From positions 1 to 48,283 of the forward strand of contig JAFDWG010000326.1 in assembly GCA_018268605.1 (NCBI GenBank): 48,283 nucleotides of DNA. The letters are read 5' to 3'. A program made the translations under genes and the position numbers. This document shows positions 3,044 through 25,297 of the stretch, one piece after another. Position 1 is the stretch's first letter, and every line of letters starts with the position of its first letter. Below the pieces are notes generated by a model that saw only the letters and a program-made list of their open reading frames with translations, made no database searches and was not told where the DNA came from. This DNA comes from Actinomycetota bacterium. GTDB taxonomy: Bacteria > Actinomycetota > Thermoleophilia > Solirubrobacterales > 70-9.

Positions 3044-3445
3044 ATGGAGTCCCAGACCCAGAACAGGATCTACGAGGAGCTCGATGGCGGCGCGGCCACG
3101 GCCGGCGGCGGCGCCGACCTCGGCCGACTGCAGAACGTGCCGGTCGAACTGGCGGTCGAGATCGGGCGGACGCGGATGACGATCGGGGACGCCTTGGCGC
3201 TCGGGATCGGCAGCGTCGTCACCGTCGGGCGGCTGGCCGGGGACCCGGTCGATCTACTGGTGAACGGGCGGGTGATCGCGCGCGGCGAGGTGGTCGCGAT
3301 CGAGGAGGAACTCGGCCTGCGGATCACCGAGATCGCCGCGCCGGTGGTCGAGGCGCCGCCCCCTCCACCCGAAATCGATGAGGCGGGGAATCCAGAACCA
3401 GGCAACGCGGGGGCCGACCCCGATCAGGAGGTGATGACCGCCTAA
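3044..3445 (+). CDS. fliN: Flagellar motor switch protein FliN
   Basis: A short protein (about 133 residues) made of a variable N-terminus, one SPOA/FliN domain (NVPVELAVEIGRTRMTIGDAL, then VDLLVNGRVIARGEVV and LGLRITEI) and a Pro/Glu-rich tail. FliN forms the lower C-ring and receives FliM. Two in-frame ATGs exist. The one at 3029 overlaps the fliL stop; the one at 3044 follows GGAGG (3031-3035) by 8 bases, so I prefer 3044. The TAA stop provides most of the TAAA -35 box of the promoter at 3443-3469. Confidence 0.92.
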   Translation: MESQTQNRIYEELDGGAATAGGGADLGRLQNVPVELAVEIGRTRMTIGDALALGIGSVVTVGRLAGDPVDLLVNGRVIARGEVVAIEEELGLRITEIAAPVVEAPPPPPEIDEAGNPEPGNAGADPDQEVMTA

Positions 3446-3469
3446 AGCGCTGGACGTTCAGGCCGATCA
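3443..3469 (+). promoter_or_regulatory. Sigma-28 (FliA/WhiG)-type promoter before fliO
   Basis: TAAA at 3443-3446, a 15-base spacer, then GCCGATCA at 3462-3469. This matches the FliA consensus TAAA-N15-GCCGATAA at all but one position and is identical in both boxes to the flagellin promoter here. Transcription would start about 7 bases downstream, near 3476. It would allow the fliO-to-methyltransferase block to be transcribed separately from flgE-fliN. Confidence 0.7.
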
Positions 3470-3475
3470 CCGGGG

Positions 3476-4018
3476 GTGCTCACACGAGCCCTCCCGATGA
3501 ACCTGTCCGCAAATTTCCTCCTCGCCGCCGCCTCGCCGTCCTCCGGAGGGAGCGAATCGCAACCGCTCGACCTCGGCGGCGCGACCACGAGCGCCCACGC
3601 GGCCGGTGGCGGCTCGATCGCGAAGACGATCGTCGGCCTGGCGATCGTGCTGGCGGTCATCTTCGGCCTGCGCTGGGTGATGAAGCACTACAAGGCCGGC
3701 AAGGAGAAGAAGGCCGCCGGGACCGGCCTCGCCTCGATGGCGACGCTGCCGCTCGGCCAGAACCGGTCTCTGCACGTGGTGCGGGCGGGCCGCGAGATCC
3801 TCGTCGTCGGCTCCGGCGAGCACGGGGTCACCCCGGTGCGAAGCTACACCGAGGAGGAGGCGCGAAGCCTCGGGCTGCTGGAGGAAGACGAGGAACCGGC
3901 GCCCCTGAAGATGGAGAGCGAGGGGCCGACGCGGAGCGGCGCCGCGGGGCCGCCGAGCGCAAGTGAGTTCGGCCGCCGCGCTCTCGACCAACTCCGCGCC
4001 TGGACGGTGCGCGGATGA
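3476..4018 (+). CDS. fliO: Flagellar export apparatus protein FliO
   Basis: A 180-residue small membrane protein that assists assembly of the FliP-FliQ-FliR export gate. One strong helix (about residues 46-64, IAKTIVGLAIVLAVIFGL) is followed by the FliO cytoplasmic domain (LPLGQNRSLHVVRAGREILVVG). The start is uncertain. The GTG at 3476 lies exactly where transcription from the sigma-28 site at 3443-3469 should begin, giving a leaderless message. The in-frame ATG at 3497 has no clear ribosome-binding site. The stop overlaps the fliP ATG by 4 bases. Confidence 0.88.
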   Translation: MLTRALPMNLSANFLLAAASPSSGGSESQPLDLGGATTSAHAAGGGSIAKTIVGLAIVLAVIFGLRWVMKHYKAGKEKKAAGTGLASMATLPLGQNRSLHVVRAGREILVVGSGEHGVTPVRSYTEEEARSLGLLEEDEEPAPLKMESEGPTRSGAAGPPSASEFGRRALDQLRAWTVRG

Positions 4019-4653
4019 AGATCGAAGGCGGCGGGAACGCGGTCCAGCTGCTGATCCTGCTCGGCGGCCTCACCCTCATCCCGGCGCTGATCTTCTGCAC
4101 CACCGGCTTCACCCGCATCCTGATCGTCCTCGGCTTCGTCCGCACCGGCCTCGGCACGCCGACGGCGCCGCCCAACCAGGTGCTGATCGGGATCGCCTTC
4201 TTCCTCACGCTGTTCGTGATGGCGCCGACGTTGAAGGCGATCAAGGAAGACGCCGTCGACCCGCTGACCGCGCACCAGATCTCCGACAAGGTCGCCCTCG
4301 AACGCGCCGAGGAACCGCTGCGTGAATTCATGTTCAAGCAGACCGGCAACGACGAGCTCGAACTCTTCCTCGGCCTCGCCAAGGTCGAAAAGCCGAAGAC
4401 CCGGGAAGACGTGCCGACCTACGTGCTGATCCCGGCCTTCATCACCTCGGAGTTGAAGAAGGCCTTCGAGATCGGCTTCCTCATCTTCTTACCGTTCCTG
4501 ATCATCGACCTGGTGGTCAGCTCGACCTTGATGTCGATGGGGATGATCATGCTGCCTCCCTCGTTCATCTCGCTGCCTTTCAAGATCCTGCTCTTCGTCC
4601 TGGTCGACGGGTGGTCGCTTGTCTTCCAGTCGGTGGTCGAAAGCTTCCACTGA
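4015..4653 (+). CDS. fliP: Flagellar export gate protein FliP
   Basis: A 212-residue membrane protein, the main ring component of the type III export gate. It contains the FliP signature (TTGFTRILIVLGFVRTGLG, PPNQVLIGIAFFLTLFVMAP) and the C-terminal helices with MGMIMLPPSFISLPFKILLFVL. Length is near the mature size of the family. Its stop and the fliQ start overlap as TGATG. Confidence 0.96.
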   Translation: MKIEGGGNAVQLLILLGGLTLIPALIFCTTGFTRILIVLGFVRTGLGTPTAPPNQVLIGIAFFLTLFVMAPTLKAIKEDAVDPLTAHQISDKVALERAEEPLREFMFKQTGNDELELFLGLAKVEKPKTREDVPTYVLIPAFITSELKKAFEIGFLIFLPFLIIDLVVSSTLMSMGMIMLPPSFISLPFKILLFVLVDGWSLVFQSVVESFH

Positions 4654-4928
4654 TGAACCAGGACGAGGTGATGAAGCTTGCGACGGACGCGCTCATGCTC
4701 GCGTTCAAGGTCGGCCTGCCGCTGCTCCTCGCCGGGCTCGTCGTCGGCCTGCTGGTCTCGGTCTTCCAGGCGGTCACGCAGATCCAGGAGATGACCCTCT
4801 CCTTCATCCCCAAGATCCTCGCCGTGGCGGTGGTCCTGATCGTCGCCGGGCCGTGGATGCTGAACCAGGTCGTCGGCTACACCACCGACCTCTACCACTC
4901 GATCCCCGGGCTGGTCAACGAAGAATGA
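4653..4928 (+). CDS. fliQ: Flagellar export gate protein FliQ
   Basis: A 91-residue protein of two hydrophobic helices (about 14-38 and 49-72) with the FliQ signature VGLLVSVFQAVTQIQEMTLSF. It binds FliP and FliR in the export gate. The frame stays open upstream of 4653, but the ATG overlapping the fliP stop (TGATG) gives the family length. It overlaps fliR by 4 bases. Confidence 0.96.
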   Translation: MNQDEVMKLATDALMLAFKVGLPLLLAGLVVGLLVSVFQAVTQIQEMTLSFIPKILAVAVVLIVAGPWMLNQVVGYTTDLYHSIPGLVNEE

Positions 4929-5704
4929 GCGTGACGATCGAAACGCTCGACCGCAACACCGTGGTCGGCTTCATCCTCGTCCTCGCCCGGGTCTCGCCGC
5001 TCTTCCTGCTGGCGCCGCCGTTCTCCTCCTCGATGGTGCCGATCCGGGCGCGGGTGATCGTCGCCGTCGGCATCTCGATCGGCCTCGCCCCGCTCGCCCT
5101 GGACGGCCAGGCGATCCCCGCCGACGCGATGCGGATCGTCGAGCTGGCGCTGAAGGAAATCGTCGTCGGCCTCGCCTTCGCGATGGCCATCGCCTGCCTC
5201 TTCGCCGCCGTCGACGCCGCCGGGGCGATGATCGACACCCAGATCGGCCTCAACTTCGGCTCGCTGATCAATCCGGTGGACAACACCCAGTCGGGGACGA
5301 TGTCGCAGCTCTACGCGATGGTCGGGATCCTCGTCTTCATCGTCATCGACGGCGAGGCGTGGGTGATCCGCGGGCTCTCGCGCACCTACGAACTGGTGCC
5401 GATGCTGGAGTTCCCGTCGATCGCGAAACTGACCTCGGCGGTGTCCCACGCCTTCATCGGAATCTTCACCGCGGCGCTCGAGGTGGCGGCGCCGGTGCTA
5501 CTGGCGCTGATCCTCACCGACGTCGCCTTCGGCGTCGTCTCCCGCGTCGTCCCGCAGCTGAACATCTTCGCGGTCGGCTTCCCGGTGAAGATCATCGTCG
5601 GACTCCTGGTCGTCGCCGCCGCGCTGCCCTTCATGGGCACCTGGTTCTACGACCAACTGCAGAGCTCGGTCGAAACCGGCCTCTCCGGGATCGGGGTGGG
5701 GTGA
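4925..5704 (+). CDS. fliR: Flagellar export gate protein FliR
   Basis: A 259-residue polytopic membrane protein and the last FliPQR gate subunit. The conserved first helix reads LARVSPLFLLAPPFSSSMVP and the central block reads GAMIDTQIGLNFGSLINP. The reading frame is open further upstream, but the ATG at 4925 overlapping the fliQ stop (ATGA) gives normal FliR length. The gene is followed immediately by flhB (GTGA overlap). Confidence 0.96.
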   Translation: MSVTIETLDRNTVVGFILVLARVSPLFLLAPPFSSSMVPIRARVIVAVGISIGLAPLALDGQAIPADAMRIVELALKEIVVGLAFAMAIACLFAAVDAAGAMIDTQIGLNFGSLINPVDNTQSGTMSQLYAMVGILVFIVIDGEAWVIRGLSRTYELVPMLEFPSIAKLTSAVSHAFIGIFTAALEVAAPVLLALILTDVAFGVVSRVVPQLNIFAVGFPVKIIVGLLVVAAALPFMGTWFYDQLQSSVETGLSGIGVG

Positions 5705-6789
5705 GCGTGTCCGGGCAGGCCGACAAGACCGAGAAAGCGACTCCGAAACGTCGCCAGGACGCCCGCAAGAAAGGGCAGGTGGCGAAATCGACCGACCTGA
5801 ACGGGGCCGTCGTGCTGGTCGCAGCGCTCGGTTCCCTGGCCGTCTTCGGCCCCCACATCGCAAGCGGCCTCGCCGACACGATGCGCGGGATGCTCGCCGA
5901 CGCCGGGAACCCCGACAAGGCGTCAGGCTCGGGGCTCGGCAGCCTCGCCGGGACGGCCGGGATGGCGATGGCGATGGCGATCGCCCCGGTGGCGCTCGCC
6001 TGCTTCGCGGCGGCGCTGGTCGTCAACCTCGGCCAGGTCGGCATCCGCCTCAACCCCTCGGGCCTGAAACCGGATTTCAAACGACTGAACCCGGTCCAGG
6101 GGGCGAAAAACCTGCTCGGGCCGAACGGCTGGGTGGAGCTGGCGAAGGCGCTGATGAAGGTGACTGCGGTCGGCGCGATCGCGGCGATGGCGCTGCTGCC
6201 GAACATGACCGAGCTCGCCGCGATGACCGGCATCGAACCGCCCGCCTTCGGCGCCGCGATCGCCAAGCTCTCCGCCGGCATCGCCTGGAAGGCCGCCGCT
6301 GCCTACCTGCTGATCGGCGCGCTCGACCTGCTCTGGCAGCGCCACAAACACGAGAAACAGCTGCGGATGACCAAAGAGGAGGTCAAACGCGAGCACAAAG
6401 AAGAGCAGCTGTCCCCGGAGCTGCGGGCGTCGATGCGCCGCAAGGCCCAGCAGATGTCGCGCGGGCGGATGATGTCGGCGGTGCTGGGCGCGGATGTCGT
6501 CGTCGCCAACCCGACCCACTTCGCGGTCGCCCTCGCCTACGACGGCAAGCGGCCCGCGCCGGTGGTCGTCGCGAAGGGGCAGGACCTGATCGCGCTGGAG
6601 ATCCGCAAGGTCGCCGAAGGCGTCGGCGTGCCGGTGGTCGAGGACAAGCCGCTGGCCCGCTCGCTCTTCGACGCGGTGCCGCTGGATGCCGAAATCCCGG
6701 CTGACTTCTACCGTGCGATCGCCGAGCTCCTCGCCTACGTCTACCGGACCGCCCGCCGGCGGGCGCCGATCGCGAGCGTGGCGGCATGA
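5701..6789 (+). CDS. flhB: Flagellar export switch protein FlhB
   Basis: A 362-residue protein that controls the switch of export from hook to filament substrates. It begins with the typical DKTEKATPKRRQDARKKGQV segment, has four membrane helices between about residues 30 and 215, and a cytoplasmic autoprotease domain. The self-cleavage motif NPTH is at 270-273 (VVVANPTHFAVAL). The start is taken as the GTG at 5701 overlapping the fliR stop; an in-frame GTG at 5707 is also possible. Confidence 0.95.
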   Translation: MSVSGQADKTEKATPKRRQDARKKGQVAKSTDLNGAVVLVAALGSLAVFGPHIASGLADTMRGMLADAGNPDKASGSGLGSLAGTAGMAMAMAIAPVALACFAAALVVNLGQVGIRLNPSGLKPDFKRLNPVQGAKNLLGPNGWVELAKALMKVTAVGAIAAMALLPNMTELAAMTGIEPPAFGAAIAKLSAGIAWKAAAAYLLIGALDLLWQRHKHEKQLRMTKEEVKREHKEEQLSPELRASMRRKAQQMSRGRMMSAVLGADVVVANPTHFAVALAYDGKRPAPVVVAKGQDLIALEIRKVAEGVGVPVVEDKPLARSLFDAVPLDAEIPADFYRAIAELLAYVYRTARRRAPIASVAA

Positions 6790-8864
6790 GCGGGGCGATG
6801 AAGAAGCTGATGGCGCACGCCGACCTGGTCGCCGCGGTCGCGGTGGTGATGGTCGTCGTGATGATGATCATCCCGCTGCCGCCGGGGGTGATCGACCTCT
6901 TCATCACCCTCAACATCGCCTCGGCGATCACGATCGTGGTGGCGACCCTGTACGTGCCGCGAGCACTCGACTTCGCCGCCTTCCCCTCCCTGCTGCTGCT
7001 GACGACGATGTTCCGCCTGGCGATCAACGTCTCGGTGACGCGCCAGATCCTCCTCCACGGCGACGGCGGCTCGGTGGTGAAGGCGTTCGGCTCCTTCGTC
7101 GTCGGCGGCAACGTCGTCGTCGGGCTGGTCGTCTTCCTGATCCTGATCGTGATCCAGTTCGTCGTCGTCACCAACGGCGCCGGGCGCGTCGCCGAGGTCG
7201 CCGCGCGCTTCACCCTCGACGCGATGCCGGGCAAGCAGATGGCGATCGACGCCGACCTGAACGCCGGCCAGATCAACGACCAGCAGGCGCACGAACGCCG
7301 CGACGACATCGCCCGTGAAGCCGACTTCTACGGCGCGATGGACGGCGCCTCGAAATTCGTCAAAGGCGACGCGATCGCGGGCATCCTGATCGTGATGATC
7401 AACCTGATCGGCGGGATCGTCGTCGGGGTGATGCAGCAACACCTCTCCTTCCCGGAAGCGGTGCAGCACTACTCGCTGCTGACGGTGGGCGACGGCCTGG
7501 CGGCGCAGATCCCGGCGCTCCTCATCTCGGTCGCGGCGGGGATCCTGGTGACGCGCTCGGCCTCGGAGCGCGACCTCGGCAACGACATCGCCGGGCAGAT
7601 CTTCGCCCAGCGCAAGGCGCCGATGGTCGCCGCCGGGGTGATCTGCGCGTTCGCGCTCGTGCCGGGCCTGCCGAAGATCCCGTTTCTCTTGATCGGTGGT
7701 GCGTTGGCCGGGGTCGCCTACGCGATGAAGGACGGGCTGCCGCAGCCCGCGGGGGCGCCCGCGCTCATGGGCGGGCCGGGGGCGCCCCCGCAGCTCGGGC
7801 CGGGCGTGCCGGAGCTCCTGCCGGGCCCGACTGCCGACACCGCAACGGCCGTCGACCCGCTGGAGCTGGCGATCGGCTTCGGCCTCGTGCCGCTGGTCGA
7901 AGCCGGCCAAGGCGGCGGGCTGATGGGCCGGGTCGGAGCGATGCGCAAGCAGCTGGCGAGCGAGCTGGGAACGGTGATCCCGGCCGTCCGCATCCACGAC
8001 GAGCTCGGCCTCGACTCCCACGAATACGTGCTGCGCGTGCGTGGCTCGGAGGTCGCGCGCGGGCGGGTCATGCCGGGGCACCAGCTGGCGATGGACTCCG
8101 GTGAGGGGGTCGGGCAGCTACCCGGCGTGCCGACCACCGAGCCCGCCTTCGGCCTCCCCGCGACCTGGGTGCCGGACGCGGCGCGGGCCGAAGCGGAGGC
8201 GCTCGGCTACACCGTCGTCGACCCCGAATCGGTCGTCGCCACCCACCTCACGGAGACGATCCGCGGCCACGCCGCCGAGCTCCTCACCCGCCAGGAGACG
8301 AAGAAGCTCCTCGACGGGCTGAAGGAGACGAACGCGGCGGCGGTCGAGGAGGTCGTGCCGGAGCAGCTCTCGCTCGGCGAGGTCCAGCGGGTGCTGCAGG
8401 CGCTGCTCCGCGAGGGCGTGCCGATCCGCGACCTCGGCGCGATCGTCGAGGAGATCGGAGACAAGTCGCGCCTCACCCGCGACCCGGCGGTGCTGGCCGA
8501 GTACGCGCGGGCGGCGCTCGGGCGGACGATCACGGCGCCCCACCTCGACGCGGCGATGCGCCTGCGGGCGATCTCGCTCGACCCGGCGGTCGAGCAGGAG
8601 ATCGGCGAATCGCTGGCCCAGACGCCCGACGGCGAGCAGCTGGCGATGGAGCCCTCGCGCGCGCAGGCGCTGGTGTCGGCTCTCGACCACCAGCTCGCCT
8701 CGGCGCTCGCCCAGGGCGCGCGGCCGGTGCTGCTCTGCTCGGGCCGCGCCCGCCGCCACCTGCGGCGGCTGTGCGAGCAGTCGCTGCCACAACTGACTGT
8801 CTGTTCCTACAACGAGATCGTGCCCGGAGTCCGGGTCGAGAACATGGGGGTTGTCCAGGTATGA
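6786..8864 (+). CDS. flhA: Flagellar export protein FlhA
   Basis: A 692-residue FHIPEP-family protein. The N-terminal half has eight predicted membrane helices and the family signature (FPSLLLLTTMFRLAINVSVT, GRVAEVAARFTLDAMPGKQM). The C-terminal half is the cytoplasmic domain that forms the nonameric docking ring for chaperone-substrate complexes. A Gly/Pro/Ala-rich linker (about 318-350) separates the halves. Full length, overlapping flhB (4 bases) and the flhF-like gene (4 bases). Confidence 0.96.
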   Translation: MSGAMKKLMAHADLVAAVAVVMVVVMMIIPLPPGVIDLFITLNIASAITIVVATLYVPRALDFAAFPSLLLLTTMFRLAINVSVTRQILLHGDGGSVVKAFGSFVVGGNVVVGLVVFLILIVIQFVVVTNGAGRVAEVAARFTLDAMPGKQMAIDADLNAGQINDQQAHERRDDIAREADFYGAMDGASKFVKGDAIAGILIVMINLIGGIVVGVMQQHLSFPEAVQHYSLLTVGDGLAAQIPALLISVAAGILVTRSASERDLGNDIAGQIFAQRKAPMVAAGVICAFALVPGLPKIPFLLIGGALAGVAYAMKDGLPQPAGAPALMGGPGAPPQLGPGVPELLPGPTADTATAVDPLELAIGFGLVPLVEAGQGGGLMGRVGAMRKQLASELGTVIPAVRIHDELGLDSHEYVLRVRGSEVARGRVMPGHQLAMDSGEGVGQLPGVPTTEPAFGLPATWVPDAARAEAEALGYTVVDPESVVATHLTETIRGHAAELLTRQETKKLLDGLKETNAAAVEEVVPEQLSLGEVQRVLQALLREGVPIRDLGAIVEEIGDKSRLTRDPAVLAEYARAALGRTITAPHLDAAMRLRAISLDPAVEQEIGESLAQTPDGEQLAMEPSRAQALVSALDHQLASALAQGARPVLLCSGRARRHLRRLCEQSLPQLTVCSYNEIVPGVRVENMGVVQV

Positions 8865-10075: not shown

Positions 10076-10464
10076 GCCCGGCCCGTCCCATCGCCTCCGA
10101 CCGCAAGGAGAACTTCGACGGGATCCCGCAGGAGGAGGTCACGATCCGCCTCCGCGACCACCCGCGGGCCCTCCGCCAGATCGAGGCGGCGCGCGGCTGG
10201 GGTGGCATCGGCTGCTTCGCCCTCGTCGCCCTGCTCGGGCTCGCCTCCGGCGTGCCGCCGGCGACGATCGGGGTGCGCGCGCTGATCGCCGGGGTCGTCG
10301 GCTACATGGTCTGCTGGTTCCTCGCGGTGACGGTCTGGCGCCATCTTGCGGTCGCCGAGGAGGCCGCGGCACGGTCGTTCGCCGAACAACGCCGCACCGC
10401 GCTGCTGGAGGAGATCAAACGGCGGTCCGCCGGGCTCGCCGAGCAGGAGGAGGGTCTCGGATGA
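10072..10464 (+). CDS. Small membrane protein of unknown function in flagellar operon
   Basis: A 130-residue protein I do not recognise. A polar N-terminus (1-45) is followed by two hydrophobic helices (about 46-65 and 69-90, GCFALVALLGLASGV and ALIAGVVGYMVCWFLAV) and a charged, probably coiled-coil C-terminus (about 95-130). It overlaps the flhF-like gene (ATGA) and the fliM start, so it is co-translated with them. It occupies the slot where flhG usually stands but has no Walker motifs and is not an ATPase. A motor- or envelope-associated role is only a guess from context. Confidence 0.75.
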   Translation: MSPARPIASDRKENFDGIPQEEVTIRLRDHPRALRQIEAARGWGGIGCFALVALLGLASGVPPATIGVRALIAGVVGYMVCWFLAVTVWRHLAVAEEAAARSFAEQRRTALLEEIKRRSAGLAEQEEGLG

Positions 10465-11678: not shown

Positions 11679-11681
11679 GCG

Positions 11682-13987: not shown

Positions 13988-14014
13988 TAAAGGTTCCTCC
14001 CGTCCTGCCGATCA
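13988..14014 (+). promoter_or_regulatory. Sigma-28-type promoter of flagellin
   Basis: TAAA at 13988-13991, a 15-base spacer, and GCCGATCA at 14007-14014: one mismatch to the FliA consensus and identical in both boxes to the fliO site. The predicted start near 14021 gives a leader of about 70 nt before the flagellin ATG. Confidence 0.82.
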
Positions 14015-14092
14015 GAGGGACGACATAAACCATGGGGCGACACGGATGTCGCCTCGGGACCATCAACCAACGATCCAAGGAGAGAGATCGGA
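14015..14092 (+). promoter_or_regulatory. Flagellin mRNA leader with candidate CsrA sites
   Basis: The leader contains several GGA triplets (about 14018, 14044-14046, 14056-14058). One GGA (14079-14081) is inside the ribosome-binding site AAGGAGAG, and another (14090-14092) touches the ATG. CsrA binds GGA motifs, and in Bacillus it represses flagellin this way with FliW as antagonist. csrA and fliW lie 2-3 kb away. Binding here is inferred. Confidence 0.5.
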
Positions 14093-14905
14093 ATGTCCCT
14101 TCGTGTTCAGACCAACATGGAAGCCTTCAACGCGCACCGGAACCTGGTGTCGACGAGCGAAGGCATCGGCAAAGCGATGGAACGCCTGTCCTCGGGCTAC
14201 CGCATCAACCGTGCCGCGGACGACGCCGCCGGCCTGGCGATCAGCGAAAGGCTGAAGGCCCAGGTCAAAGGCATCGGCCAGGCGCAGCGGAACGTGCAGG
14301 ACGCCGTCTCCGTCGTGCAGACCGCTGAAGGTGCCCTCAACGAGGTCCACTCGATGCTCCAGCGCACCCGCGAACTCGCCGTCCAGTTCAAGAACGGCTC
14401 GCTCTCGGAAGGCGACAAGGTGTCGATCCAGTCGGAGATCAACCAGCTCGCCAGCGAGGTGGCCCAGATCGGCGAAGACACCGAATTCAACGGCATCAAG
14501 CTGTTGAACGAAAAAGCGACGATCACCTTCCAGGTCGGCGCGAACGACGGCGAGGTGATCAGCGTCTCCACGATCAGCCTCGGCGAAGCGGTCAAAGCCG
14601 CGGCGTTCGAACTCAAATCGGGCACCGAAGGCGCCGAAGACATCAAACAGATCGACTCGGCGATCGAAGCGGTGTCGAGCCAGCGCGCCGAATTCGGCGC
14701 GGTGCAGAACCGCCTCGAACACACGCTCAACAACCTGGCCGTCTACCAGGAAAACCTGAGCGCCTCGGAAAGCCGTATCCGCGACGTGGACATGGCCTCC
14801 GAAATGGTCCAATTCACCAAGCTGCAGATCCTGCAGCAGGCCGGCACCTCGATGCTGGCGCAGGCCCAGCAGTCCGGGTCGGCGGTGCTGAAGCTCCTCG
14901 GCTAG
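14093..14905 (+). CDS. fliC: Flagellin
   Basis: A 270-residue flagellin, near the minimal size. It has the conserved N-terminal D0/D1 helices (SLRVQTNMEAFNAHRNL, SSGYRINRAADDAAGLAISE) and the C-terminal D1/D0 helices (SRIRDVDMASEMVQFTK, QQAGTSMLAQA, ending VLKLLG), with only a short middle section (about 145-190) that would be surface-exposed. It is exported through the flagellar channel. A strong ribosome-binding site (AAGGAGAG) sits 8 bases before the ATG, and a sigma-28 promoter sits at 13988-14014. Glu and Lys codons are mostly GAA/AAA. A GC-rich hairpin follows the gene. Confidence 0.97.
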   Translation: MSLRVQTNMEAFNAHRNLVSTSEGIGKAMERLSSGYRINRAADDAAGLAISERLKAQVKGIGQAQRNVQDAVSVVQTAEGALNEVHSMLQRTRELAVQFKNGSLSEGDKVSIQSEINQLASEVAQIGEDTEFNGIKLLNEKATITFQVGANDGEVISVSTISLGEAVKAAAFELKSGTEGAEDIKQIDSAIEAVSSQRAEFGAVQNRLEHTLNNLAVYQENLSASESRIRDVDMASEMVQFTKLQILQQAGTSMLAQAQQSGSAVLKLLG

Positions 14906-14926
14906 AGAGGAGCGGGACGCATGCGG

Positions 14927-15056: not shown

Positions 15057-15083
15057 TAAAGATGTCCTGAGCGGGACCGATCA
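15057..15083 (+). promoter_or_regulatory. Sigma-28-type promoter before CHAP hydrolase gene
   Basis: TAAA at 15057-15060, 15-base spacer, ACCGATCA at 15076-15083. Seven bases further is about 15090, just before the ATG at 15092, so the message would be essentially leaderless. Confidence 0.65.
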
Positions 15084-15091
15084 AATGAGAG

Positions 15092-15757
15092 ATGACTCTC
15101 GAAACGACGCTCGCCCGGATCTCGGCGATCGAATCGGCCTTGGCGCCGCCGCCGGGCGGCGGAACCGGCGCGCCGGCTCCGGGCCTCGCGAGCGCCTCGG
15201 TCGCTTCACCCGCCTCCTCGACCTCCTTCTCGCAACTGCTGAACCGGGCCTCCACGAGCTCGACGCTCTTGCCCGGAGCCTCGCCGATCGCGCTCGGGAC
15301 GACCGCTGGAGCCAGTACCGCCGGCCTCGCCGCGGTGGCCGCGGCCAAGACCCAGGTGGGCCAGGCCGAGATGCCGCCCGGCTCCAACGAATCGCCGCGG
15401 ATCGCCGAATACCGAAGCGCGGTGCAGGGCGCCGTGGTCGGCCCCTGGTGCGCCGACTTCGCCTCCTGGTGCGCCGCCCAGGCGGGCATCCCGCTGGGAG
15501 AAAACGGAGAAGGCTTCCAGGGCGTCGGCGCGCTCTGGGAATGGGCGGAGGCAAGCGGCCGTGCGATCCCCGCCGACGAAGGCTCACCGGCCCCCGGCGA
15601 TCTGATCGTCTGGGGCTCCGACCATGTGGGGATCATCGAAGCGGTCGACCCCGACGGGACCATTCATACGATCGAGGGCAACTCGTCCGACGAAGTCGCC
15701 CAGCGCACCTACGGCCCGGGCGAAAGCGGCGCCACCGGATACGTCCGCCTCGGATGA
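15092..15757 (+). CDS. CHAP-domain peptidoglycan hydrolase, probably flagellar
   Basis: A 221-residue protein. The low-complexity N-terminus (1-85) has no Sec signal peptide. The C-terminal CHAP amidase/endopeptidase domain (about 85-221) shows the expected catalytic Cys120 (WCADFASW), His178 (DHVGIIE) and Asn197 (EGNSS). A sigma-28 promoter and a position next to flagellin suggest it opens the cell wall for the rod, as the enzymatic half of FlgJ does elsewhere; a separate FlgJ rod-binding domain is at 20208-20540. Export through the flagellar apparatus is a plausible inference. It overlaps the LuxR-type gene (ATGA). Confidence 0.85.
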   Translation: MTLETTLARISAIESALAPPPGGGTGAPAPGLASASVASPASSTSFSQLLNRASTSSTLLPGASPIALGTTAGASTAGLAAVAAAKTQVGQAEMPPGSNESPRIAEYRSAVQGAVVGPWCADFASWCAAQAGIPLGENGEGFQGVGALWEWAEASGRAIPADEGSPAPGDLIVWGSDHVGIIEAVDPDGTIHTIEGNSSDEVAQRTYGPGESGATGYVRLG

Positions 15758-16440
15758 GCTACCTGATCTCCAGCGACACGGCGCATGGCGCCGCGGCCAA
15801 GGGCCCTGCGACCCCGCCGCGAGCCCGGGCGTCGGCCGAGCTCTCGATTCGATTGCCACTCGTGGCCGTCTATGCGGAACGGGCGATCGCGCGCGCCGGT
15901 CTCGTCGCCCTGCTGCGCTCGCAGATGTTCGATGCCGTCATGCCCGAAGAGGAGGACCGCGGGCCGCTCGCCCTCCGTCCCGACGTGATCCTGATCGCCG
16001 GCTTCGCGCCGGAGCGCCGTCTCGCCGACAGCCTCGCGAGGCGCCATCGTGCCCCGGCGATGCTGATGCTCGACGGCCCGATCAGCGCCAATTCACCGGC
16101 GGAGCTGGGTGTGCACGGCGCGGTCTGCCGCGAGTGCCCGCCCGAGCGGCTGATCGAAGGGCTCCACGCCCTCGCCGCCGGCGGGACCTTCTTCGAGTGC
16201 CACACCCACCCCTCGGCACCGACCCCGACCGACTCGCTGCTCTCGCCCCGGGAGCGCCGCGTCACCGCCGAGCTGGCCCGTGGCGCGGGCGTCGAGGAGA
16301 TCGCCGCGGCGCTCTGCATCAGCCCCCACACCGCCCGCACCCACGTGCGGAACGTCCGTCGCAAACTCGGCGCCCGCACCTCGGCCGAGGCGGTCGCGCG
16401 TGCGCTCACCCTCGGTCTGGTGGCTGTACCGGCGCCGTGA
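15754..16440 (+). CDS. LuxR-family regulator with degenerate receiver
   Basis: A 228-residue protein. The N-terminal region (about 30-145) follows a response-regulator layout (LPLVAVYAERAIARAGLVALL, RPDVILIAGFAP, AVCRECPPERLIEGLHALAAG). At the end of the third strand, where the phosphorylated Asp normally stands (LLDxxMP), the sequence is LIAGFAP, so phosphorylation there is unlikely. The C-terminal GerE/LuxR helix-turn-helix (about 160-222, LLSPRERRVTAELARG, ISPHTARTHVRNVRRKL) is intact. It is co-translated with the CHAP gene, and its last 35 bases overlap the 3' end of csrA on the other strand. Confidence 0.82.
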   Translation: MSYLISSDTAHGAAAKGPATPPRARASAELSIRLPLVAVYAERAIARAGLVALLRSQMFDAVMPEEEDRGPLALRPDVILIAGFAPERRLADSLARRHRAPAMLMLDGPISANSPAELGVHGAVCRECPPERLIEGLHALAAGGTFFECHTHPSAPTPTDSLLSPRERRVTAELARGAGVEEIAAALCISPHTARTHVRNVRRKLGARTSAEAVARALTLGLVAVPAP

Positions 16441-16627
16441 AGTCGCCCTGCGCGGCGGCTTCGTTCTCCCGCTTGATCTGCTCCCAGAGCTCCTCGCGGT
16501 AGATCCGCCGCTCCTTCGGCGCGGTGATCCCAAGGCGGACCGAGCCGCCGCTCACCTCGACGATCTCGACCACGATGTCGTCGCCGATCAGGATGCGCTC
16601 GCCCTGGCGGCGACTGATCGTCAGCAT
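16406..16627 (-). CDS. csrA: Carbon storage regulator CsrA
   Basis: A 73-residue CsrA/RsmA RNA-binding protein starting MLTISRRQGERILIGDDIVV, with the RNA-contacting GITAPKERRIYREELW segment. It represses translation by binding GGA motifs in mRNA leaders; flagellin is the usual Gram-positive target. No good Shine-Dalgarno sequence precedes the ATG. In most genomes csrA directly follows fliW; here 367 bases containing element copy II lie between them. The 3' end overlaps the LuxR-type gene tail-to-tail. Confidence 0.96.
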   Translation of the reverse strand: MLTISRRQGERILIGDDIVVEIVEVSGGSVRLGITAPKERRIYREELWEQIKRENEAAAQGDFTAPVQPPDRG

Positions 16628-16672
16628 CGGGGGAGTGTAGTGGGGGTGCGGGCGGGGGCGGCAGTCCTATTG

Positions 16673-16732: not shown

Positions 16733-16751
16733 TGAGGGTTCCGTGTGGATT

Positions 16752-16841: not shown

Positions 16842-16887
16842 GTGCCCGGCGTACGAGCCGGGCCGACGTGCTTCCCTCACATACCCC

Positions 16888-16937
16888 GGCCGTCTCGGCC
16901 ACGGCCACAGCCAGCCCGGGCCGTGGCCGAGACGGCC
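16888..16937. repeat. Hairpin B, copy II
   Basis: A 19-bp perfect stem, GGCCGTCTCGGCCACGGCC (16888-16906) with 16919-16937, and a 12-base loop. Stem identical in copies III and IV. Confidence 0.75.
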
Positions 16938-16994
16938 GCGCTCGCCGCCACGTCTTGCGTCCCTTTCCCGGTCGCGAACGCCGAAGCCGCGACC

Positions 16995-17438
16995 CTACGC
17001 CGCGACCTGCCGCCGGCCGCCGGAGAGCAGCGGCTCGCGCAAGGGCGCCCAGGACGCCTCGTTCATCACCTGGTGCCCGACGCCGGCCGAGACGAGGATC
17101 GGGGCGAGAAGGTTGGCGCTGATGCGGCCCGGATCCTCGTCGGCGCGGACGACGACCAGCACCTGGGCGGTGGCGGGATCGGTGACGCCGATCCGGGCGG
17201 CCTCATCGTCGGAGAGGATGACCTCGTAGTCGGGGAAGAAGGCGAAAGGGTCGGTGACGGGCAGGGCGAGGTGGGGCTCGGAGGCCTCCTGCAACCACTT
17301 GAAGGCACCACTCTCCTCACGTTCGAGGAGAGCGAAACGGCGCCCGCCGACGCCGATCATGCCCTCCGGGAAGTCGATCAGGGCCTCGACGGGAACCTTG
17401 AGCTCCCCGAACCGCGTGCTGTCGACGATCTCGATCAT
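16995..17438 (-). CDS. fliW: Flagellar assembly factor FliW
   Basis: A 147-residue FliW. Typical segments are RFGELKVPVEALIDFPEGMIG, FALLEREESGAFKWLQE and PDYEVILSDDEAARIG. FliW binds both flagellin and CsrA, so that secretion of flagellin releases FliW to inhibit CsrA. It is the last gene of the flgF-flgL operon, 20 bases after flgL, with a GGAAGAGGAG ribosome-binding site next to the ATG. Confidence 0.95.
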   Translation of the reverse strand: MIEIVDSTRFGELKVPVEALIDFPEGMIGVGGRRFALLEREESGAFKWLQEASEPHLALPVTDPFAFFPDYEVILSDDEAARIGVTDPATAQVLVVVRADEDPGRISANLLAPILVSAGVGHQVMNEASWAPLREPLLSGGRRQVAA

Positions 17439-17458
17439 CTCCTCTTCCTTCCCCCGTC

Positions 17459-18373: not shown

Positions 18374-18395
18374 CGCGCGCCCCTCCCCCGCCCGC

Positions 18396-19724: not shown

Positions 19725-19728
19725 GCCG

Positions 19729-20211
19729 CTAGGCCTCCACGTCCATCAGTCGGCGGCCGCCGGGCTCGGCTTCTTCGCCGGACACCCGCAGCAGGTGGTC
19801 GAGGAAGGTCAGTTCCTGGCGCATCAGGGCCCGGTTGATGCCGTGCTCCCGAGCGATCTCGGCGAGGAGCCCGCGCAGTTCTGCCGAGCGCGTGAGCAGC
19901 CGCTCCTGTTCGGCCGGCGCGGCGAGGCCGGCCAGCCCCGGTAGGCCGACCTCGACCGGCTTCACCCCGAGGCGCACGGCGGCGCGGCGGATCAGCTCGC
20001 CCCGTTCGCGCTCGAGCGATTCGCGCGCCGCCATCTCCACCTGGATGTCGGAGAGGCGGGCGAGGACGGCCTCGACATCGCGCTCGCGGATCGCCGCGCC
20101 CTGGCGCAGGACGAGGTCGAGCAGCCGCTGCGCGGAGGCGATCTGCAGCTCCAGGTGGCGGGCGACCGCGGCGGGCAGGACCTGATCTTGGACCAGCATC
20201 TCGGCGCTCAC
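19729..20211 (-). CDS. flgN: FlgN-like export chaperone for FlgK/FlgL
   Basis: A 160-residue, mostly helical protein immediately before flgK and flgL, the usual place for FlgN. The helix around residues 20-75 and the C-terminal coiled coil with LLAEIAREHGINRALMRQELTFLDHLL resemble FlgN. The call rests on length, helical character and gene order more than on a sharp motif. It overlaps the flgJ-like gene by 4 bases. Confidence 0.78.
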   Translation of the reverse strand: MSAEMLVQDQVLPAAVARHLELQIASAQRLLDLVLRQGAAIRERDVEAVLARLSDIQVEMAARESLERERGELIRRAAVRLGVKPVEVGLPGLAGLAAPAEQERLLTRSAELRGLLAEIAREHGINRALMRQELTFLDHLLRVSGEEAEPGGRRLMDVEA

Positions 20212-20540
20212 CGCCTGACCCCCTCGAAGTTCGCGTACATCTCGCCCGCGAGGCCGAGCCCGCCCGCGCCGACCACCGCTTCGGCGACCGTTTCGGGGAG
20301 GCTGACCGGGGTCGGCGTCGCCGAGAAGGCATTGCCGCCTTCACCACCGCCGAACCCTTCTTCTTCGCTCGAGCCCGTCGGGGATTCCGGCAGCGCCTCG
20401 GCGAGCATCTGCTTCAACAGCATCGATTCGAAGGAGAGCGCGGCACGGAAGCCCTGAATCGCGCCCGGCCCTTCGTCGCGGATCGATTTCGGCACCGACG
20501 CGCCCGCCACCGCCGCCGAGATCCCCGTCGCTCCGGTCAT
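20208..20540 (-). CDS. FlgJ-type rod-binding domain protein
   Basis: A 110-residue protein matching only the N-terminal rod-capping half of FlgJ: AALSFESMLLKQMLAEALP, then a Gly/Glu-rich linker, then GLGLAGEMYANFE. The hydrolase half is absent; the CHAP protein at 15092-15757 may supply it. Overlaps flgG and flgN by 4 bases each. Confidence 0.82.
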   Translation of the reverse strand: MTGATGISAAVAGASVPKSIRDEGPGAIQGFRAALSFESMLLKQMLAEALPESPTGSSEEEGFGGGEGGNAFSATPTPVSLPETVAEAVVGAGGLGLAGEMYANFEGVRR

Positions 20541-21271
20541 CGGATCAACCCGTTGGCGACGGCGAGGACTTCGTCCTGGGTGGTGATCGCCTTGCCCGCC
20601 AGCGCGTAGCCCTGCTGGGCTTCGGTCATCGCGGTCATCACGCTCGACATGTCAACGTTCGAGGCCTCGAGCGCGCCCTGCTGCAGCCGCGCCCGCGGCG
20701 CCGCCTTCACCGGGCCGCTCGCGGCCGTCGGCAGGTACTCGCCTTCGCCGTCGGCCTGCAGACCGTCCGGGTTGGTCACCTCGACGAGCGGGATCTTGCC
20801 GAGCGTGCGTTTGCCGGCACTGACCGTCCCGTCTGGGGCGATCGAGATGTCGGAAGGGTCGACGCCTTTGGGGATCTGGACCGGCGGCTGGAGCGCCTGC
20901 CCGGTCGCCGTGCGCAGTTGCCCGTCGGGGCCGACCTGCAGGTTGCCGTCGCGGGTCAGGGCGACGCCGCCGGCGGCGGAGCGCACCTGGATGAACCCGG
21001 GCGTGGTGAGCGCCACGTCGAGCGGCCGTTCCGTCGCTTCCAGCGCCCCCTGTTCCTGGTCTTGCCCGAAGATCTCGGCAGCCGACCCGGAGCCGGTGGC
21101 CGTGCCTTCGGCGCCACCGCGTCCCGGCGACTGGTAGAGCAGGTCGCGGAACCCGACCCGGAGGCTCTTGTAGCCGGTGGTCGAGACGTTCGCGATGTCG
21201 TTCGACAGCGCGTCCATCCAGGCCTGCTGGGCTTCCATCCCCGCGGCTGCGGTGGCCAGCGCGGCGTCCAT
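20537..21271 (-). CDS. flgG: Flagellar distal rod protein FlgG
   Basis: A 244-residue rod/hook-family protein. The N-terminal AAAGMEAQQAWMDALSNDIANVSTTGYK motif and GFRDLLYQ favour FlgG. The C-terminal QGALEASNVDMSSVMTAM and the final helix are standard for the family. It follows flgF with a one-base overlap. Which of this and the next gene is FlgF or FlgG is not fully certain. Confidence 0.82.
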   Translation of the reverse strand: MDAALATAAAGMEAQQAWMDALSNDIANVSTTGYKSLRVGFRDLLYQSPGRGGAEGTATGSGSAAEIFGQDQEQGALEATERPLDVALTTPGFIQVRSAAGGVALTRDGNLQVGPDGQLRTATGQALQPPVQIPKGVDPSDISIAPDGTVSAGKRTLGKIPLVEVTNPDGLQADGEGEYLPTAASGPVKAAPRARLQQGALEASNVDMSSVMTAMTEAQQGYALAGKAITTQDEVLAVANGLIR

Positions 21272-21957
21272 CAGCCGATCGCCCCCACCTGGCCGGCCGA
21301 CTCGCCGAGCGTTTCGTTGATCGTCTGGATCGATTTCTGATCGGCTTCGAGGGCGCGGAAGGAGGAGATCATCTGGACCATCGCCTGGGACGGATTCACC
21401 GCCGATTCCTCGAGGAACCCGGCCCGCACCTTGCCCTTCGCCTGCCCGGTCGTGTTACCCGTGTAGAGGTTGTCGCCCTGCTTTTCGGCCCCGGCGACTT
21501 CGAAGACCCCGATGTCCCCCGGCGCCACCGTCCCGTCGGCGCGGAGGCGCACCGGCGCCCCGTTCGCGCCGAGCACCGGGTCGCCGAGCTGGTCGGTCAG
21601 GTTGCCTTCGGCGTCGACCGAGAGCTGGCCGTTGCGCGTGTAGCGCACCCCCGCCCCCGTCCGCACGGCGAAAAACCCTTCGCCTTCGATCGCGAAGTCG
21701 AGCGCTTCGCCGGTTTCGTGGATACCGGCCGGGGTCAGGTCGGTCGTCGTTTCCCCGATCTGCACCCCGAGGCTCAGTCGCCCGACCGGGGCCCCGGTGG
21801 CGGTGTTCTGCAGCAGCAGTTCCCCGAACCCTTCCTGCGTCGCCCGTTCCGCCTTGAACCCCGGCGTGTTCACGTTCGCCAGCTGGTCGGAGATCTGTTC
21901 CTGGCGCACCATCTCGGCGAGCATCCCGGAGGCGGCGATGTAGAGACCGGAGTCCAT
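21271..21957 (-). CDS. flgF: Flagellar proximal rod protein FlgF
   Basis: A 228-residue rod protein: N-terminal MDSGLYIAASGMLAEMVRQE with DQLANVNTPGFKAER, middle GEALDFAIEGEGFFAVRT, C-terminal LEESAVNPSQAMVQMI. The single-residue changes relative to FlgG (MDSGLYIAASGM) fit FlgF. First gene of the operon; a sigma-28-like site lies 10 bases upstream, so translation would start almost at the 5' end of the message. Confidence 0.82.
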   Translation of the reverse strand: MDSGLYIAASGMLAEMVRQEQISDQLANVNTPGFKAERATQEGFGELLLQNTATGAPVGRLSLGVQIGETTTDLTPAGIHETGEALDFAIEGEGFFAVRTGAGVRYTRNGQLSVDAEGNLTDQLGDPVLGANGAPVRLRADGTVAPGDIGVFEVAGAEKQGDNLYTGNTTGQAKGKVRAGFLEESAVNPSQAMVQMISSFRALEADQKSIQTINETLGESAGQVGAIG

Positions 21958-21967
21958 CCAGCCCCGG

Positions 21968-21994
21968 TATTCGACCGCCGCGCCCCGGACTTGA
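21968..21994 (-). promoter_or_regulatory. Sigma-28-like promoter before flgF
   Basis: On the minus strand: TCAA (21994-21991), a 15-base spacer, then GTCGAATA (21975-21968). It is weaker than the fliO and fliC sites, but the boxes, spacer and 10-base distance to the ATG closely match the flaG site at 25271-25297. Confidence 0.5.
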
Positions 21995-22015
21995 GCCGAG
22001 TCCGCGCCGAGTGGC

Positions 22016-22819
22016 TCAGCCGACGGCGGTGAAGAGCTCGGCGTCGCGGCGCAGGGAGGACTTCAGGCGCTTCTTCAGTTCGCCGTGGATCTGGCAGACG
22101 CGGGACTCCGAGACGCCGATGACCTCGCCGATCTCGGCCAGGGTGCGGTCCTGGGTGTAGAGCATCACGGCGACGCGACGCTCGCGGTCGGAGAGATGGG
22201 AGAAAGCGCGGCGGAAGCGCTCGCGGGCGAGGGCCTTGGTCGCCTCGCTCTCCGGATCGGCGCGGCCCTCGAGGTCGGGGATGGTCTGGGACAGGGCGAC
22301 GCCTTCCTCTTCTTCCCCGGAGGAGCTGACGGAGTCGAGCGAGGTGAGCTCCGCGGTGGCGAGGTCGCGCAGGCGGGCGGCCAGCTCGTCCTCGGCGATG
22401 CCCATCTTCGAGGCGAGCTCGGGGTCGGTCGGGCGGCGGCCATGCTCGCGGAAGAAGTCCTCGCCGGCGCGCTCGGCGTCACGCTCCCAGCGACGGAGGC
22501 TGCGCGGTGCCCAGTCGAGACGCCGGAGGCTGTCCAGCACCGCCCCTTGGATCCGGGTCCAGACAAACTGTTCGAGGCTCGCGCCTTTGTCGGGGTCGTA
22601 CCGATCGAGCGCGCCGATCAGCCCCTCGACCCCGTTTGAGACGAGGTCGTCGACCTCACACCAGGCGGGCAGCTCGCGCACCTTGCGGTAGGCGAGGTGA
22701 CGGACGAGCGGCACATAGGTGAGCACCAGCTGTTCGCGCAGCCGACGGTCGCCGGTCTCGCGGTAGCGGCGCCAAAGGTTCTCGGTCTCCAGCTGGGCTC
22801 GTCCGGTCGAGCTTGCCAT
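22016..22819 (-). CDS. fliA: Flagellar RNA polymerase sigma factor FliA (sigma-28/WhiG type)
   Basis: A 267-residue sigma factor. Region 2 reads LVRHLAYRKV...CEVDDLVSNGVEGLIGALDRYD with FVWTRIQGAVLDSLRRLDW, which is typical of FliA/WhiG. Region 3 includes RRPTDPELASKMGI, and region 4 reads LSDRERRVAVMLYTQDRTLAEIGE with SESRVCQIHGELKKRLK. The frame runs far upstream, but the ATG at 22819 has an AGGAGGAGG ribosome-binding site and gives normal length. It should recognise the TAAA-N15-GCCGATCA sites in this window. Divergent from the GT2-TPR gene. Confidence 0.94.
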   Translation of the reverse strand: MASSTGRAQLETENLWRRYRETGDRRLREQLVLTYVPLVRHLAYRKVRELPAWCEVDDLVSNGVEGLIGALDRYDPDKGASLEQFVWTRIQGAVLDSLRRLDWAPRSLRRWERDAERAGEDFFREHGRRPTDPELASKMGIAEDELAARLRDLATAELTSLDSVSSSGEEEEGVALSQTIPDLEGRADPESEATKALARERFRRAFSHLSDRERRVAVMLYTQDRTLAEIGEVIGVSESRVCQIHGELKKRLKSSLRRDAELFTAVG

Positions 22820-22981
22820 CGGGTACCTCCTCCTGCCTGGACTGGATTGCGGGGTGCGCAGGAGGTTTCGGCCGCACGGGGCCGCGGCTAGATCGCCGCT
22901 CTGGGGTAAACAAGGCATCCAGTACCCGAACGAATGTCCAGTTTCTGCATCATCGGGATTGGCGGCCGATGACCCGAGGCG

Positions 22982-25285
22982 ATGGCACTGCGACTCGCTC
23001 ACGACACCGCCCCGGCCGCTCCGCGCGCCGAATCCCCCGCCGACCGACGCGAAGCTCCTTACCGGGAGCGCCGCGCCGCGATCGAGGCAATGCTTCGCTC
23101 GGCCGCCGCGAGCGCGGCGCCGCGCGAGCTTCCCGGCCTCTACCTGGCGCTCGCCCGCGAGGCGCTCGACGGCCTGGCCGTCGAGCCGCGCGAGCCGCTG
23201 CTCCTCAACTACGCGGGCGCGGGACTGAACGAACTCGGCGCCCGCGACGGTGCCGCCGCCCTCTTCGAGGCCGCGCTGCGCCTCGACCCGCAGCTTCCCC
23301 ACGCCGCCCGCAACCTGGAGTCGGCGCGCGCCCACAAGGGCTCGCGGCCGAACCTCCCGGCCGCCGTCGCCGTCCGCCTCCGTGGGCTCGAAAACGAGGC
23401 GCGTCGCGTCGCCGCGTCCGCCCGACGAGCCACCGGGCTGCGCCTCAGCCTCTGCATGATCGTCCGCGACGAGGAGGAGATGCTGCCGCGCTCCCTCGCC
23501 GCCGTCGCCGACGCGGTCGACGAGATCGTCGTCGTCGACACCGGCTCCCGCGACCGCACCGTGGAGATCGCCCGTTCCTTCGGCGCCACCGTGGTCGAGC
23601 GCGAGTGGACCGGCTCCTTCGCCGAGGCCCGCAACGCCTCGATCGAGGCCGCCACCGGAGACTGGCTCCTCTTCCTCGACGCCGACGAGGTGCTCGACCC
23701 GGCCGACGCGCCGCTCCTGCGCGAGCTGACCGGTCGCACCTGGCGCGAGGCCTTCTACCTGATCGAGACCAACCACACCGGGGAGCTCGGCGACGGCACC
23801 GCGGTCACCCACAACGCCCTGCGCCTCTTCCGCAACCGGCCCGAGTACCGATTCGACGGGCGCGTCCACGAGCAGATCGCCCAGAACTTGCCGTCGGGGC
23901 TGCCGGAGCGGATCGAGCCGACCGCGGTCCGGGTCGACCACTACGGCTACCTGGGTGCCGTCCGTGACGCGAAGGAGAAGTCGCGGCGCAACATCGAGCT
24001 GCTGCGGAGCCAGCTGGCCGAGGCGGGCGCCACGGGCGCGAACCCCTTCTTCCACTTCAACCTCGGCTCCGAGCTCGCCGCAGTGGGCGACGCGGCGGGC
24101 GCCTGCGAGCAGTTCGAGCGTGCCTGGGCGCTGCTTGCCGAGGACCCGGCGCGGAGCGAGCGTCCCTTCACCCCGTCCCTGACCGTGCGTTCGGTGAAGG
24201 CGCTGCGCTTCGGCGGGCGATTTGCCGATGCCGACGCGCGGGCGCTGGACGGCCTCGCCCTCTTCCCGGACCTGACCGACCTGGTCTTCGAGCGCGCGCA
24301 GATCGCCGCCGCCGAAGGCGACGCCGAGCGCGCCGCGGCGCTCTTGGAGGAGTGCCTCGAGCGGGGCGACGCGCCGAGCCGCTATTCGCCGACCGTCGGC
24401 AGCGGCAGCTTCCTGGCGCTGGCGCGGCTGGCGGAGCTGGAGCGCAGGCACGACCCGGAGCGGGCCGAGGAGCTGCTGCGCCGCTGCCTGCGCGAACACC
24501 CCTCTTACCTTGGAACGATCCTGCCGCTGGCCGCGACGATGCTCGCCCGCGGGGCGCCGTCCGCCGAGGTGGTGGCCGAGATCGAAGGAGCGGTCGCCAA
24601 GCCGACGCCGTCCGTCCGCTTCATGCTCGCCACCGCCCTATATGAGGCGGGCGAGGCCGAAGCGGCCGAACCGCTCTACGCGGCGGTGGTCGAGGCACAG
24701 CCGACCAACGGCGGCGCCCGCCTGGCGCTGGCCGAGACCCTGCTCTCGACAAAACGCTACGTGGAGGCCGCCGAAGTCTGCGGCGAGATCGCCGACGAGG
24801 ACGCCTTCGCGGTCGCCGCGGCGCGCAGCGAGCTCTTCGCCCGCACGCTGGCCGGGACCCAAAGCGACGACGCTACTGCACGCGCCTCCCGTCGGGGCCT
24901 CCCCGCCGCCGAGCTCGATCTCTTCGCGGCGTGGTCCTCCGCCGCCCCCTACCCGCCACTCGCCCCCACCGTGGTCGGACCGCTCGCCACCATGCTCGAG
25001 GCGCTGCTCCGGGTCGAGGAGTTCGAGGCCTTCGAAGCGCTTCTCCCCGCCCTCGAGGCGACCGGCCTGTCGGCCCGGCGACGTCACTCGATCCTCGCCG
25101 AGATCTACCTCCGCCGCGGCTTCCTCGAATCGGCCGCCGACGAGTGGGCCGCCGGCTGCGAGAAGGAAGGGCCGGACGCCGAGGCGCTCGGCGGGCTCGC
25201 CCGCGTCGCCGCCGCCCAGGGCCTTACCGAGGACGCCGAGATCTTCGAAAAGGGCGCGCTGGAACTCGCCTCAAGTTCCGTCTGA
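22982..25285 (+). CDS. GT2 glycosyltransferase fused to tetratricopeptide-like repeats
   Basis: A 767-residue protein. Residues about 45-115 are helical and TPR-like. A GT2 domain follows at about 153-260, with LSLCMIVRDEEEMLPRSL, VVVDTGSRDRT, the catalytic acidic motif LFLDADE (233-235), and FRNRPEYRFDGRVHEQI. The remaining 450 residues are alpha-helical repeats (TPR-like). This is the SunS/TPR type of glycosyltransferase that modifies proteins. Placed between fliA and flaG-fliD, it is a candidate flagellin or filament-cap glycosyltransferase. No clear promoter was found in the 162-base divergent gap. Glu codons are mainly GAG. Confidence 0.85.
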   Translation: MALRLAHDTAPAAPRAESPADRREAPYRERRAAIEAMLRSAAASAAPRELPGLYLALAREALDGLAVEPREPLLLNYAGAGLNELGARDGAAALFEAALRLDPQLPHAARNLESARAHKGSRPNLPAAVAVRLRGLENEARRVAASARRATGLRLSLCMIVRDEEEMLPRSLAAVADAVDEIVVVDTGSRDRTVEIARSFGATVVEREWTGSFAEARNASIEAATGDWLLFLDADEVLDPADAPLLRELTGRTWREAFYLIETNHTGELGDGTAVTHNALRLFRNRPEYRFDGRVHEQIAQNLPSGLPERIEPTAVRVDHYGYLGAVRDAKEKSRRNIELLRSQLAEAGATGANPFFHFNLGSELAAVGDAAGACEQFERAWALLAEDPARSERPFTPSLTVRSVKALRFGGRFADADARALDGLALFPDLTDLVFERAQIAAAEGDAERAAALLEECLERGDAPSRYSPTVGSGSFLALARLAELERRHDPERAEELLRRCLREHPSYLGTILPLAATMLARGAPSAEVVAEIEGAVAKPTPSVRFMLATALYEAGEAEAAEPLYAAVVEAQPTNGGARLALAETLLSTKRYVEAAEVCGEIADEDAFAVAAARSELFARTLAGTQSDDATARASRRGLPAAELDLFAAWSSAAPYPPLAPTVVGPLATMLEALLRVEEFEAFEALLPALEATGLSARRRHSILAEIYLRRGFLESAADEWAAGCEKEGPDAEALGGLARVAAAQGLTEDAEIFEKGALELASSSV

Positions 25286-25297
25286 CCCGGTCGATTA
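25271..25297 (+). promoter_or_regulatory. Sigma-28-like promoter before flaG-fliD-fliS
   Basis: TCAA (25271-25274), 15-base spacer, GTCGATTA (25290-25297), overlapping the stop of the GT2-TPR gene. The predicted start near 25304 lies about 4 bases before the flaG ATG. Three mismatches to the consensus, but spacing and position agree with the other four sites. Confidence 0.5.

Follow-up and report, generated by a model that had tools for sequence, protein, structure and literature searches.

Stem-loops of the ompA type are found at the 5' ends of bacterial mRNAs. The promoters of flagellar-type (FliA/WhiG) sigma-28 factors have the consensus TAAA-N15-GCCGATAA, with a GCCGATAA-like -10 box, and in Rubrobacter this consensus has been found ahead of transcription starts that were mapped (PMC8325347). 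Leaderless messages are common in Actinobacteria; they make up 33% of the mRNAs of Corynebacterium glutamicum (PMC3890552), and one has been described in Actinoplanes (PMC11064477). In Bacillus subtilis, hag belongs to a CsrA-FliW-flagellin circuit (PMC6529632). Here we describe sigma-28-type sites in a 48,283-nucleotide (nt) stretch of DNA from a soil bacterium of the Actinomycetota (contig JAFDWG010000326.1 of assembly GCA_018268605.1), hereafter the window, which is an entire contig (C251) of a 3.79-Mb, 375-contig metagenome-assembled genome that is ~85% complete. The closest named relatives of this genome are SZAS-9, an Actinomycetota isolate, and Solirubrobacterales bacterium 70-9, and its genus is near '70-9'; the window is therefore a flagellar cluster of the order Solirubrobacterales.

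We consider it likely that the sites are FliA-type sigma-28 promoters whose position relative to each gene sets one of three modes of translation. In the first, at flgF and the CHAP-domain gene across the order and at flaG within the genus, the -10 box is 8-12 bases from the start codon, so that the mRNA would begin ~1-6 nt ahead of it and be translated in a leaderless or near-leaderless manner without a Shine-Dalgarno (SD) sequence. In the second, the fliO mRNA would open with a hairpin that fills most of its leader, and a short C-rich stretch that lacks an SD would separate it from the AUG at 3497; this hairpin probably protects the 5' end or serves as a target of control. In the third, CsrA-FliW control of flagellin output would act through a leader of ~70 nt in which a CsrA-type GGA hairpin is combined with a strong SD. 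The motif, its spacing and genomic clustering, the conserved distances, the lack of SD sequences, the covariation of the hairpin and the presence of fliA, csrA and fliW are all observed here, and we infer where exactly transcription starts and how the messages are translated. Each of these ingredients is known in itself; the novelty lies in the promoter-to-start distance that flgF and the CHAP gene keep throughout the order, and in the conservation of the fliO hairpin.

Sigma-28 promoters in the flagellar cluster

The initial annotation had placed five sigma-28-type sites in the window, and their sequences, coordinates and strands were all confirmed. A sixth, weaker sigma-28-like site, missed in that annotation, was found ahead of motA.

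3443..3469, plus strand: sigma-28 site of fliO, exact match, kept ahead of fliO in the order
13988..14014, plus strand: sigma-28 site of flagellin, exact match
15057..15083, plus strand: sigma-28 site of the CHAP gene, exact match
21968..21994, minus strand: sigma-28 site of flgF, between fliA and flgF, exact match
25271..25297, plus strand: sigma-28 site of the flaG-like gene, exact match
902..928, plus strand: sixth, sigma-28-like site, of motA, TGAAG-N14-GTCGATTA, weight-matrix score 18.2, with comparable sites in 13 relatives

The fixed 15-base spacing was likewise borne out, as the pattern T[AC]AA-N15-[GA][CT]CGA[TA][CT]A has five exact matches in the window and none when the spacing is changed to 11-14 or 16-19. 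Across the assembly as a whole this pattern (TMAA-N15-RYCGAWYA) has 13 matches, compared with one for a reversed-pattern control. All eight matches outside the window read TMAAC, and the form TMAAG-N14-RYCGAWYA is therefore confined to the five window sites. A genome scan of this kind had been suggested as a check on the motif, and the sites cluster with flagellar genes. With the looser pattern TMAAG-N14-NYCGAHYA, 5 of the 11 matches in the window's genome, and 36 of 102 in eight genomes of the order (tallied by hand), are in the flagellar cluster, which represents 1-2% of each genome's DNA. When a weight matrix was run over 1.31 Mb of relatives' flagellar DNA, 81 sites were found at the same spacing, 13 at one base more and 0-2 at each other spacing, a count that is partly circular because the 35 training sites all shared that spacing.

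The sites resemble described FliA/WhiG promoters in boxes, spacing and flagellar targets, and differ from them in that many -35 boxes read TCAAG, that several genes have their start codon within 8-12 bp of the promoter, and that the targets include fliO, flgF and motA. What marks FliA-dependent promoters in sequence is found here: boxes at a fixed spacing, a flagellar association beyond chance and a fliA gene in the genome. Judged by their sequence, the five sites are genuine flagellar-type (FliA/WhiG) sigma-28 promoters.

The presence of fliA, also claimed in the initial annotation, holds.

22052..22729, minus strand: fliA (sigma-28), extent of the profile match, directly upstream of flgF (TIGR02479, 200.6 bits, above cut-off)

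A second FliA/WhiG homologue (L278 2713-3498, on contig C16 of the genome) adjoins a phage-integrase-type recombinase gene. Its profile score is better than that of the cluster fliA, and in Rubrobacter such sites are read by WhiG, whose promoter specificity is the same (PMC8325347), so that the five sites might be real but read by this factor, or by both, and not by the cluster FliA. We regard this as unlikely, although it deserves consideration, given that fliA sits in the flagellar cluster immediately 5' of flgF and that the sigma-28 sites cluster with flagellar genes. The cluster FliA is the factor that we infer to act at the sites. A search for FlgM gave no match in the window's (incomplete) genome and weak matches in 15 of 44 genomes.

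Promoter-to-start distances

The genes with a promoter close to the start codon are the following.

21271..21957, minus strand: flgF, starts 10 nt past the -10 box (Pfam)
15092..15757, plus strand: CHAP-domain gene, starts 8 nt past the -10 box (Pfam CHAP)
25308..25646, plus strand: flaG-like gene, starts 10 nt past the -10 box, an arrangement common to the genus only

Orthologues in relatives were located by protein homology, which makes the start codon independent of the promoter. The -10 box lies 8-12 nt from the start of flgF at 29/29 sites with a score of at least 15, 8-9 nt from that of the CHAP gene at 12/12, and 54-106 nt from that of flagellin at 42/42. The -10-to-start distance is never below 7 nt, in agreement with transcription from about +7 after the -10 box, the position that we assumed throughout. 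SD-like tetramers precede 3/30 flgF starts, 1/13 CHAP starts and all 42 flagellin starts, where 24% is expected by chance. Proximity to the -10 box thus extends to every flgF and CHAP site found, and their starts lack SD motifs, as the initial annotation had maintained for the window. We predict that the flgF and CHAP messages are near-leaderless (about 1-6 nt) across the order.

For flaG, a near-leaderless message is predicted in the window's genus only. In other families a longer leader follows the upstream site, and in many cases it contains a GGA hairpin together with purine-rich sequence. An out-of-frame ATG (25304) falls exactly at the predicted flaG transcription start, 4 nt 5' of the in-frame ATG at 25308, and is kept in L211 and L212 of the genus. 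At motA the ATG (944) is 15 nt past the end of the site, and the leader, predicted to be 9 nt long, contains GGAG; several relatives have a distance of 7-10 nt instead. Of the four genes said earlier to have near-leaderless messages, flgF and the CHAP gene are upheld by order-wide distances and flaG within the genus, while fliO is not. A strict division into leaderless and leadered genes is too simple, as flaG has a longer leader in other families, motA is intermediate and fliO forms a third class.

The predicted messages share with the leaderless mRNAs of other Actinobacteria a start codon that lies at the 5' end (a predicted one here) or close to it, and the absence of SD. They differ in predicted leaders of 1-6 nt rather than 0, in conservation gene by gene across the order, and in their dependence on an alternative sigma factor. 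Two genomes of the genus offer a further candidate: at L272 ~237 and L279 ~976, a sigma-28-like TAAAG-N14-GGCGATCA lies just 5' of a GTG-start gene, a candidate fliJ, in a near-leaderless position.

It could be argued that flgF, CHAP and flaG are translated mostly from longer read-through transcripts, the adjacent sigma-28 site yielding a minor message only; flgF follows closely behind fliA on the same strand, where read-through is possible. We think this improbable, since flgF and CHAP starts are without SD motifs and the promoter distance is kept to within 5 nt.

The description of the targets as a late regulon is also doubtful, because they include a gene of the export gate (fliO), one of the rod (flgF) and one of the stator (motA); in enteric bacteria these are not all late genes.

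Against the proposal of position-set translation modes weigh the second sigma-factor homologue and the circularity of the spacing count, and also the following: a G run at +4 to +6 is compatible as a transcription start, in which case leaders would be up to 9 nt; the arrangement varies more at flaG and motA than at flgF and CHAP; and in some relatives the site before fliO is weak or missing.

The fliO start codon and leader hairpin

Most flagellated genomes of the order have kept the sigma-28 site ahead of fliO, a gene that lies upstream of fliP and the remaining export-gate genes. The features downstream of the site are as follows.

3476..3496, plus strand: predicted fliO 5' leader, hairpin GCTC (3478-3481)-ACAC-GAGC (3486-3489), then CCTCCCG before the start codon (RNAfold, half-swap test on 35 leaders)
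3497..4018, plus strand: fliO coding sequence from ATG 3497 (Pfam FliO; frame comparison in genus and order)

The initial annotation had fliO leaderless from GTG 3476, which is exactly 7 bases past the -10 box and in frame in the window's genome. Within the genus, this GTG is out of frame in G077 and G110 and missing in G130, while the ATG equivalent to 3497 is kept; order-wide, the in-frame fliO start is mostly 25-62 nt past the -10 box, after the hairpin. A start codon at the 5' end that is conserved in relatives is thus not found, the reading frame within the genus speaks against GTG 3476 as the fliO start, and we hold a leaderless fliO to be highly improbable. The start that we assign is ATG 3497, preceded by a leader of ~21 nt with the conserved hairpin. 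The -35 box of the site was correctly said to contain the fliN stop (TAA in the window), but this overlap is kept in only 3/15 genomes, for which reason a functional role for it was rejected.

A hairpin between the predicted transcription start and the ATG is found in most genomes of the order. Its stems vary (GCTC/GAGC, GACTC/GAGTC, GGTCA/TGACC, CGGATC/GATCCG and others), so that pairing, and not sequence, is kept. When the 3' halves were swapped among 35 leaders, folding became weaker, from -9.3 to ~-5.9 kcal/mol. The observed sum was not attained in any of 20,000 permutations, and the result was the same with 21 dissimilar leaders only. In a group of 14 related leaders, RNAalifold gave three pairs kept via two-sided changes, with a covariation term near zero on the crude alignment, and the UCCCUCG spacer before the AUG is nearly invariant. 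The arms are often identical within one family (GACTC and GAGTC), as they would be in a DNA operator. Between genera the stem differs in sequence and length and the loop in length, yet pairing persists, and no half-swap folds as well, which makes an operator very unlikely and argues for a hairpin in the RNA.

Stem-loops of the ompA type are likewise at the extreme 5' end of the message; the fliO hairpin differs from them in lying just before a start codon without SD, in having no Rfam match and, in several relatives, in a start region perfectly antisense to an element behind flagellin. Some further candidates were rejected. The hairpin is not a CsrA site, its loop being without a consistent GGA, and Rfam returned sub-threshold chance hits only. 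In read-through transcripts, GGG after the -10 box might pair with CCC before the AUG (own sequence 0.43 unpaired, foreign or shuffled sequence 0.49-0.51); we do not claim that fliO starts are closed in this way, because every one of these promoters has the GGG and the difference is a modest one.

The flagellin leader

The flagellin gene has a long leader and a strong SD, as had been stated: the leader is predicted to be ~70 nt here.

14036..14053, plus strand: CsrA-like hairpin GGCGACA-CGGA-TGTCGCC in the flagellin leader; in relatives the stem varies and the GGA loop stays
14077-14082, plus strand: SD AAGGAG of flagellin
14093..14905, plus strand: flagellin (Pfam Flagellin_N and Flagellin_C)
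16472..16627, minus strand: csrA, extent of the profile match (PF02599, 78 bits)
16995..17438, minus strand: fliW (PF02623, 87.9 bits)

The suggestion of a CsrA-type leader agrees with the GGA-loop hairpin and the GGA at the SD, both kept in relatives, and with csrA and fliW in the window; csrA is present in 44/44 genomes searched. The B. subtilis circuit is alike in the GGA-loop hairpin, the second GGA at the SD, and csrA and fliW in the cluster, and we saw no essential difference, binding being predicted here. By analogy, the flagellin leader would be under CsrA-FliW control. In the flagellin promoters of L145, L147 and L156, the sigma-28 site is within a near-perfect inverted repeat (e.g. 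TAAAGATCGGCCCCTCGGGGCCGATCTTT), and the promoter and the terminator-like hairpin of adjacent flagellin genes therefore seem to overlap.

An antisense element behind flagellin in relatives

The frequency of TCCCTC is 15.9 per kb within 70 nt downstream of fliO promoters, as against 0.66 after other sigma-28 sites and 0.16 overall. In ten relatives a short element 3' of flagellin, which resembles a transcription unit, carries its complement. It consists of a CACATA-like box, ~8 nt, CATCGAGGGA, which is perfectly antisense to the fliO start region, and a GC hairpin that in most cases has a T-rich tail.

Flagellin-downstream element, part 1: L168 3842 (minus); L165 17705; L160 1494 (minus); L148 16706; L153 2835 (minus)
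Flagellin-downstream element, part 2: L151 4489 (minus); L157 17039; L162 506 (minus); L159 17770; L158 5551 (minus); L142

Perfect antisense of at least 9 nt to fliO -15..+5 lies within 330 nt of the flagellin stop in 10/26 genomes, compared with 3.8% of random segments, and in G014 both partners have changed together (fliO ACCCGTCCCTC, element GAGGGACGGGT). The element, which matches no Rfam family, may be a small RNA and is a lead. Tentatively, and with more doubt than confidence, we suggest that the export-gate operon is controlled at the hairpin leader of fliO, whose start region, at least in Solirubrobacteraceae and one further family, would be silenced through base-pairing with a short RNA made behind flagellin (seed CAUCGAGGGA against fliO UCCCUCGAUG). 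No such element was found behind the window's own flagellin gene; as its genus keeps the hairpin, the partner would there be lost or lie elsewhere. In the literature we found no report of the fliO hairpin or its apparent antisense partner.

Gene content of the window

Profile searches matched fliN, fliO, fliP, flhB, flagellin, the CHAP gene, flgN, flgF, fliA, fliD, fliS, motB, csrA and fliW in the window, together with an SRP54-type GTPase at the flhF position and a flgL-type flagellin homologue. motA was named from its product and its location ahead of motB; the flaG-like gene gave no match in a Pfam search and owes its name to its position before fliD. Between the CHAP gene and csrA (15760-16440) lies a reading frame with a LuxR-type (GerE) DNA-binding domain.

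Implications for flagellar regulation

Based on these results, the cluster offers a concrete case of an alternative sigma factor whose promoters would fix the mode of translation gene by gene, as near-leaderless, hairpin-led or CsrA-controlled. The results also suggest that sigma-28 drives export-gate, rod and stator genes in this order, at variance with the early/late scheme known from enteric flagella. The fliO hairpin and its apparent antisense partner in relatives could form a new regulatory RNA pair and, if this is true, the flagellin locus would feed back on the export gate.

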